Part shown: positions 58,557 to 60,381 of the stretch, in pieces
Layout: every line of letters starts with the position of its first letter
How positions within the stretch are numbered: position 1 is the first letter of the stretch
Source of the DNA: an uncultured Alcaligenaceae bacterium
Lineage (GTDB): Bacteria; Pseudomonadota; Gammaproteobacteria; Burkholderiales; Burkholderiaceae_B
Reading direction: 5' to 3'
DNA: 60,381 nucleotides
Assembly (NCBI GenBank): GCA_937896225.1
Contig: CALBMZ010000154.1
Span: 1-60,381 of the forward strand
Notes under the pieces: generated by a model
Told to the model about the DNA's origin: nothing
Databases searched by the model: none
What the model saw: the letters and a program-made list of their open reading frames with translations, nothing else
Program-made: the position numbers and the translations under genes

Positions 58557-58766
58557 AATGCGACCTAAATGCTTACTATCGAAATTACCCCTCATGTTAC
58601 TGGGGCATACTGTTCATTAACGTATGATGGGTGTTTAATCAGGCACAATTTGATTTCAATTACAGTATGCGAGATTCTTTAATTGATAATTTTTTATCGT
58701 AACGTGTTTGGCCTAAAATTTTAATTGTTGATTTGTGTAAGTGACACATTTAACGGAGCTTTCTGC

Positions 58767-59516
58767 ATGACCGATCAAGTAAATGACCTCAACCAAAGCG
58801 AGCACAAGCATGATGATGTTGCTGCGCCTGATCAGGGTCGCCCAATGTCTGTTGTGATTCGTGAGCGAATCCAGAAGTCTCGTAAACGCTTTCATGCAAA
58901 TGATAATATTTCTGCATTTATTGAACCTGGCGAGCTTGAGGTTTTGCTTGACGAAGTTGAACAAAAGATGGCTGGCGTACTTGAAAGCCTAGTCATAGAT
59001 ACTGAGGGTGACCACAACACTCAAGGTACCGCTCGTCGTGTGGCAAAAATGTACTTGAAAGAAGTGTTTGGGGGACGCTACGCGGCACAGCCAGCCATAA
59101 CCGAATTCCCCAATGTAGAGCACCTTAACGAACTCATGATTGTGGGGCCGATCACTGTGCGCAGCGCGTGTAGTCATCATTTCTGCCCAGTCATCGGTCA
59201 AGTGTGGGTAGGCATTATGCCTAACGAGCACACCAACGTCATTGGCTTATCAAAATACGTACGTTTGGCGGAATGGATCATGAGTCGCCCTCAAATACAA
59301 GAAGAAGCCGTCGTTCAGCTAGCTAATTTGATTCAAGATAAAACCCAACCTGATGGTTTAGCCGTTGTAATGAGTGCAACCCATTACTGCATGTCATGGC
59401 GGGGTGTGAAAGATATGGGTAGCCGCATGATCAATTCAGTGATGCGTGGTAGCTTTTTAAAAGACCCTAATTTACGTCGTGAATTTTTATCGCTCTTACC
59501 GCGTGAGGAAAAATAA
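58767..59516 (+). CDS. folE: GTP cyclohydrolase I
   Basis: 'VRSACSHHFCPVIGQVWVGIMPNE', 'LSKYVRLAEWIMSRPQIQEE', 'ATHYCMSWRGVKD'; ATG at 58767 preferred. Confidence 0.95.
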   Translation: MTDQVNDLNQSEHKHDDVAAPDQGRPMSVVIRERIQKSRKRFHANDNISAFIEPGELEVLLDEVEQKMAGVLESLVIDTEGDHNTQGTARRVAKMYLKEVFGGRYAAQPAITEFPNVEHLNELMIVGPITVRSACSHHFCPVIGQVWVGIMPNEHTNVIGLSKYVRLAEWIMSRPQIQEEAVVQLANLIQDKTQPDGLAVVMSATHYCMSWRGVKDMGSRMINSVMRGSFLKDPNLRREFLSLLPREEK

Positions 59517-59971
59517 TGCTTGTTCGCCTACTTTACGTTAGCCGTGCCGTTGATCAAAATTCAGGTAAGCCTGCCAATCCTGAAGTGCCCTTAGCGGAAG
59601 AAAGTGAATCCATTATGTCTTCCTCTCGCAGCTATAACATGAGCAATGGCATAACAGGCATTCTTTGTTATGGTGGGGGTATTTACCTTCAAGCCATTGA
59701 AGGCGGGCGTACCGAAGTTAATAAATTGTATAACCATATTATTCGTGATACACGCCACACCGATGTAGTGTTGTTGCATTATCAAGAAATACGTGAACGT
59801 CGATTCAGTGGCTGGACAATGGGGCAAGTTAACTTATCTAAATTAAATACATCTATCGTTTTAAAGTATTCAGAGCGACCCGAGCTCGACCCTTATTCAG
59901 TTTCAGGTGATGTGTCGATGGCGTTGCTTGAAGAGTTGATGTTGACTGCTTCAATTATTGGTCGGGCTTAA
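59516..59971 (+). CDS. BLUF domain blue-light sensor (short, no appended output domain)
   Basis: BLUF motifs: '[10 protein letters not shown]' (Tyr), '[29 protein letters not shown]' (Asn/Gln), '[10 protein letters not shown]' (Trp/Met); TAATG overlap with folE. Confidence 0.92.
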
Positions 59972-59973
59972 AT

Positions 59974-60273
59974 ATGGTGCGGCTCAGTCAACTCGATATT
60001 CAGTCTTTAATGACTCAACTCGACCCTGCTTGGAAAATGGTGCCGGGCCAAACTGAATCAACTGATTCGATACAAGCACAATTTAAATTTAAAAACTTTA
60101 CCTCTGCGTTTGCATTCATGACCCGCGTCGCAAAAGTCGCTGATGACATGAATCACCACCCCGAATGGTTCAACGTTTATAACCGTGTTGACATTACCCT
60201 ACGTACCCATGATGCCGGCGGAATCACTCAGCTTGACTTTGATTTGGCAAACGCAATTGATCAATTGGTCTAG
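59974..60273 (+). CDS. 4a-hydroxytetrahydrobiopterin (pterin-4a-carbinolamine) dehydratase
   Basis: Motif D-x3-HHP-x5-Y-x9-H-x8-D satisfied by '[32 protein letters not shown]'; 99 aa. Confidence 0.94.
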
Positions 60274-60293
60274 TCTTTTAAAAAGTGATTTCG

Positions 60294-60381
60294 CAACTAA
60301 CTTACAACTAACTTACAACTAACCTGCAACTAACCTGCAACTAACCTGCAACTAACCTGCAACTAACCTGCAACTAACCTG
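60294..60381. repeat. 11-bp tandem repeat, 8 units, truncated by window end
   Basis: 2 x CAACTAACTTA followed by 6 x CAACTAACCTG, uninterrupted to last base. Confidence 0.97.

Follow-up and report, generated by a model that had tools for sequence, protein, structure and literature searches.

The folE-BLUF gene pair is apparently a conserved light-sensor/enzyme module that is undescribed among the partner systems of short BLUF proteins. FolE converts GTP to dihydroneopterin triphosphate, the entry to folate and pterins, and BLUF proteins bind FAD and change state in blue light. Conservation this wide suggests that light probably controls the first enzyme of folate synthesis or its product, and some coupling to light is considerably likelier than none at all. 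The chances are about even that the two genes form a light-responsive module in which the BLUF protein contacts FolE and light tunes the activity or assembly of the enzyme.

The window is the whole 60,381-nucleotide stretch that was analyzed, contig C154 of an uncultured Alcaligenaceae bacterium, and the pair lies close to its end with the following features.
58755–58758, + strand: GGAG, a ribosome-binding-like (Shine-Dalgarno-like) sequence 8 nt 5′ of the folE start
58767–59516, + strand: folE, 249 aa, with ATG at 58767 and stop TAA at 59514–59516
59505–59509, + strand: GAGGA, a ribosome-binding-like sequence within the folE 3′ end, 6 nt 5′ of the BLUF start
59516–59971, + strand: BLUF gene, 151 aa, with ATG at 59516–59518 and stop TAA at 59969–59971
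59974–60273, + strand: PCD (pterin-4a-carbinolamine dehydratase) gene, 99 aa, a lineage-specific third gene
60293–60381, no strand: contig end, 8 copies of the 11-bp tandem repeat GCAACTAACCT

The folE stop and the BLUF start share one base in the TAATG at 59514–59518, the PCD ATG at 59974 begins two nucleotides after the BLUF stop, and the three genes are a tight operon. The coordinates, the overlap and the 2-nt spacing had been reported in an earlier sequence-only reading of this DNA and were all correct when the sequence was re-read. Scanning the operon for promoters and terminators returned sites no more numerous than in shuffled sequence. The folE, BLUF and PCD genes are each the sole gene of their kind in the window genome (2.65 Mb, 97% complete), and a second GTP cyclohydrolase I of the FolE2 type was not found in it.

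The BLUF protein was used as the sole query against bacterial and archaeal genomes, and 80 loci were kept, mostly from Alcaligenaceae and Comamonadaceae. folE is directly upstream of BLUF in all 80, and the distance from the folE stop to the BLUF start is −1 to 63 nt, mostly <15 nt. In a wider sample of 250 genomes of Burkholderiales, 88 had at least one BLUF and 119 matched FolE, the latter divided into genomes with a divergent FolE (≥58% identity, n = 56) and genomes with classical FolE only (≤43% identity, n = 63). In 40 of the 56 divergent-FolE genomes, belonging to 14 families, BLUF is the next gene downstream and shares the strand of folE; it is downstream of folE in 0 of the 63 genomes with classical FolE only (Fisher's exact p = 5e-19, a value that ignores kinship between genomes). 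The better measure is the spread over 14 families, since genomes that share ancestry are not independent. G021 is a 41st carrier genome in which both genes are near contig ends. A second, classical FolE was detected in 6 of the 40 pair-bearing genomes, and the same search detected none in the other 34. The 16 of 56 genomes that keep a divergent FolE without an adjacent BLUF come from several lineages and indicate that BLUF is dispensable for FolE activity.

The pair also occurs in another order of the same class (G398 and G509, loci L166/L167) and in another class (G847, loci L175/L206). FolE and BLUF have the same nearest relatives, which are L143 for L166 and L101 for L175. This agreement between the two proteins suggests that folE-BLUF was transferred as a unit, apparently at least twice. 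Synteny confined to a single genome, which the sequence-only reading had named as refuting, is clearly false for a pair present in 14 families and two further lineages. The pairing might instead be neutral hitch-hiking, an old operon retained by inertia, since much of the sample has one ancestor in the order and the tree needs only about six changes; for the same reason of common ancestry, the pair counts are not independent. However, the pair has stayed intact although the genes around it are rearranged from one family to the next, and the apparent unit transfers and the constrained BLUF tail described below also speak against inertia, which makes hitch-hiking quite improbable.

The BLUF protein scores 93.4 bits against PF04940 (cut-off 25), and no second Pfam domain was found in this single-domain protein. 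The photocycle residues Tyr7, Asn41, Gln59, Trp100, and Met102 are invariant in 110 folE-linked BLUF proteins; the sequence-only reading had recognized this residue set and the absence of a fused output domain, and both observations hold. The AlphaFold model (pLDDT 86.7) matches the PixD fold over the whole chain, and the best PDB matches are 1x0p, 8i98, and 2hfo with TM scores of 0.79–0.83. PixD is the closest protein in both sequence and fold (33% identity; decameric 1x0p, 8i98, and 2hfn), and the predicted structure places the window protein as a PixD-type short BLUF consisting of a single domain and C-terminal helices. The first loop contains a 10-residue insert (residues 17–26, 59564–59593) that, among the 110 linked BLUF proteins, is present only in the window protein and that of L002.

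The C-terminal tail distinguishes the linked proteins. Mean pairwise identity among linked BLUF proteins is 71% for the tail (residues 104–150) and 66% for the sensor core, compared to 15% and 38%, respectively, for 21 unlinked short BLUF proteins from the same order. Overall diversity is higher in the unlinked set, which makes the ratio of tail to core identity the fairer comparison: 1.08 for linked versus 0.38 for unlinked proteins. The linked tail has the consensus LKYSExPxLDPYxVSGxVSxALLEELMxTASIxGR. The linked proteins form one clade in the best tree, on a branch without support.

The flavin of a BLUF protein can also respond to redox state, and the carrier genera are mostly not phototrophs. 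Both points would suit a BLUF protein that regulates FolE in response to flavin or redox state and not to light. Redox sensing alone needs no such set of photocycle residues, and the invariance of all five in the 110 linked proteins makes this explanation unlikely.

FolE belongs to a divergent subfamily. The protein scores 144.8 bits against the Pfam GTP_cyclohydroI family (PF01227, cut-off 27) and 146.8 bits against the NCBIfam folE equivalog TIGR00063, which is below the 181.6-bit cut-off and sets it apart from the standard equivalog. Its signatures are CSHH and an N-terminal RFHANDNI motif. The zinc and catalytic residues C135, H137, H138, S162, K163, Q178, E179, H206, and C208 are invariant in 55 sequences and align with those of the E. 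coli and Yersinia enzymes. A fold search matched decameric enzymes, GFRP-bound ones among them. The FolE tree was rooted on L217, and the outgroup branch is so long that the root is not trusted and the tree was used for nesting only. Eight FolE positions are kept in BLUF-bearing lineages and not in BLUF-less lineages. Conservation at residues 232–233 is 0.87/0.95 in lineages with BLUF versus 0.32/0.53 where BLUF is absent, a weak sequence hint with two confounders, kinship and the faster drift of the BLUF-less lineages. These two residues presumably fall in the segment that matches R235–R241 of human GCH1, based on an alignment by eye to the human C-terminus. Human R235–R241 is part of an allosteric site near the GFRP interface (PMC7750480). 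A divergent FolE is also found behind a GTP cyclohydrolase II (RibA-type) domain in fusion proteins of about 785 aa in G142 (L159:1192–3564) and G009 (L161:949–3294), and neither genome has a BLUF match.

folE is the only permanent companion of BLUF, and none of the other neighbors that were followed is constant. A protein of about 275 aa without a Pfam match is encoded downstream in 53 of the 64 linked loci with enough flank (Comamonadaceae), a photolyase-related gene in 4 of 64, and PCD within 2.5 kb in 5 of 64, the window not being counted. None of the neighbors followed was found in other families within the ~1.3-kb flank examined. The PCD protein itself is a clear family member (Pterin_4a, 115 bits; NF002018, 121.1 bits with a curated cut-off of 108). 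PCD recycles pterin-4a-carbinolamine. The sequence-only reading had observed that no phenylalanine hydroxylase gene in the window explains PCD, and this extends to the whole genome, where no match to the aromatic amino acid hydroxylase family (PF00351) was found anywhere; a phenylalanine hydroxylase is therefore ruled out as the explanation of PCD.

A unit of all three genes, in which BLUF controls both pterin enzymes, would account for the tight spacing in the window and for PCD near the pair in L002, L005, L047, L053, and L056. It is highly improbable: 59 of the 64 loci have no PCD in the downstream flank, a transporter gene intervenes between BLUF and PCD in four of the other five, and the genome has no pterin-dependent aromatic amino acid hydroxylase. 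A general folE-BLUF-PCD module is ruled out by the same 5/64 count; PCD belongs to a small lineage as an accessory gene and may function in pterin recycling. The sequence-only reading had placed a BLUF protein between two pterin enzymes. Its functional tie to FolE has strong support from adjacency, co-transfer, and a tail conserved only in linked proteins, and the placement next to PCD does not hold in general.

The GCAACTAACCT repeat that ends the window contig also opens contig C82 of the same genome (L148:1–55). The genes that follow the repeat on C82 lie on the opposite strand and encode DUF2237, a protein related to deoxyribodipyrimidine photolyase (PF04244), and a cryptochrome of the DASH type (TIGR02765, 405 bits against a cut-off of 317). 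The same DUF2237/photolyase-related/DASH cryptochrome order is directly after folE-BLUF-PCD in the close relative L002. Based on the repeat common to both contigs and the gene order in L002, C154 and C82 very likely join at the repeat, and given that join the operon is very likely convergent with two light-dependent flavoproteins. L005, L047, and L056 have an MFS transporter gene, PCD, and then both photolyase-family genes, and L053 has MFS, PCD, and the DASH cryptochrome, the only photolyase-family gene recorded there. Despite its small size, the window genome encodes three photolyase-family proteins, two on C82 (L148:509–3447) and one on C277 (L147:401–1942).

Shared transcription alone, without contact, could cause the adjacency. 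Both genes would then serve a light or UV response, FolE would feed folate (the methenyl-THF antenna) to DASH cryptochromes and photolyases, and BLUF would target another protein such as a transcription factor. The operon faces photolyase-related and DASH cryptochrome genes in the window genome, L002, L005, L047, and L056, and CRY-DASH alone at L053, as this explanation would have it. A precedent exists in Pseudomonas mendocina, where the short LOV protein PmSB-LOV and the LitR effector PmlR2 are encoded beside a light-inducible folM-folE-folX cluster (PMC9758184). It independently ties blue light to FolE at the transcript level, with a short blue-light sensor next to pterin genes that include folE and folE transcripts that increase in light, but the sensor is LOV rather than BLUF and control is transcriptional through a LitR-type regulator. 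The photolyase neighbors are confined to one small branch and most folE-BLUF pairs lack them, whereas folE alone is constant, also in the other order and class that apparently received the pair. Co-expression without contact is thus possible but doubtful, and photolyase antenna supply as the sole reason for the pair is ruled out by the limited distribution of the photolyase genes.

The reading in which the BLUF protein acts on FolE itself starts from a PixD-type sensor, predicted here to bind FAD and to change state under blue light. The protein has no output domain and so would act through contact, and because folE is its only permanent companion, the most likely target is the co-translated FolE or its product. 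Light would then raise or lower FolE activity or assembly. In its most specific form, which we hold tentatively and at somewhat less than even, BLUF is a regulatory subunit of FolE, switched by light, through which blue light directly gates the enzyme; it would be the first short BLUF with an enzyme of primary metabolism as its direct target. The gated step would be the first entry to folate and pterins across much of Burkholderiales, and apparently the sole one in most carriers. Several facts count against FolE contact: no FolE-BLUF gene fusion was seen, this FolE persists without an adjacent BLUF in several lineages and is active when purified alone (FolE_IA of Cupriavidus metallidurans, PMC10882993), PixD switches between dimer and decamer, and its partner PixE is not an enzyme. 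The purpose would be to match folate and pterin supply to light. Since light destroys folates and increases the need for photolyase antenna folate, activation by light seems the more natural guess, although the direction is not readable from sequence.

In crystals, PixD is a stack of two pentameric rings, and light makes it release its partner (PMC5899715). GCH1 is a D5 decamer that is flanked in animals by two GFRP pentamers along the five-fold axes (PMC7750480). PixD-type stacked pentamers and a five-fold symmetric FolE decamer are a ready match, and by analogy BLUF pentamers could plausibly cap the FolE decamer in the way that GFRP caps the animal enzyme. The resemblance to GFRP is in working only: a small protein proposed to dock on the five-fold decamer and tune it. 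GFRP is neither a BLUF protein nor photosensory, it mediates BH4 and phenylalanine control, no homology was found, and GFRP is absent among the 50 PDB matches listed for the BLUF model. PixD (Slr1694/Tll0078) is a closer relative, also a single-domain BLUF with a two-helix C-terminal extension and the best match in sequence and fold. PixD acts via protein contact and forms decamers, and the window protein is proposed to act alike. The PixD partner PixE is response-regulator-like and functions in phototaxis, whereas the constant companion of the window BLUF is a folate enzyme, and the linked tail is a distinct and strongly conserved sequence. BlsA, YcgF/BluF, and AppA are likewise BLUF sensors that steer a partner by contact, and their known partners are, to our knowledge, regulators and not biosynthetic enzymes.

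Partners are known for few of the many short BLUF proteins, and these partners are regulators. Comparative genomics here points to one partner, FolE, in bacteria that belong to many families and are mostly not phototrophs. A literature search for BLUF together with GTP cyclohydrolase, folE, pterin, or Cupriavidus returned no paper on the pairing in a coverage that excludes most subscription journals. If FolE is controlled by light, folate supply, one-carbon metabolism, and antifolate sensitivity would be light-dependent in the carriers, growth tests run regardless of light would deserve a second look, and the pair would provide a natural light-switchable metabolic enzyme for optogenetics.

The Cupriavidus metallidurans CH34 chromid (NC_007974.2) carries a folE of the same subfamily that is 70% identical to the window folE, followed 23 nt after its stop by a BLUF gene whose product is 47% identical to the window protein. 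The sole FolE reported on this chromid is FolE_IA (Rmet_3990), which is an active zinc enzyme when purified alone (41 U/g), and the paper mentions neither BLUF nor blue light (PMC10882993). From its location and type, we infer that the chromid folE paired with BLUF is FolE_IA, Rmet_3990. C. metallidurans has two further FolE enzymes, whereas the window genome has one FolE. Strains with single and double folE deletions exist, as does purified FolE_IA, so the question is testable now in this organism. A natural comparison pair is present in G872, which has two divergent FolE copies (L211 and L212), one with an adjacent BLUF and one without.
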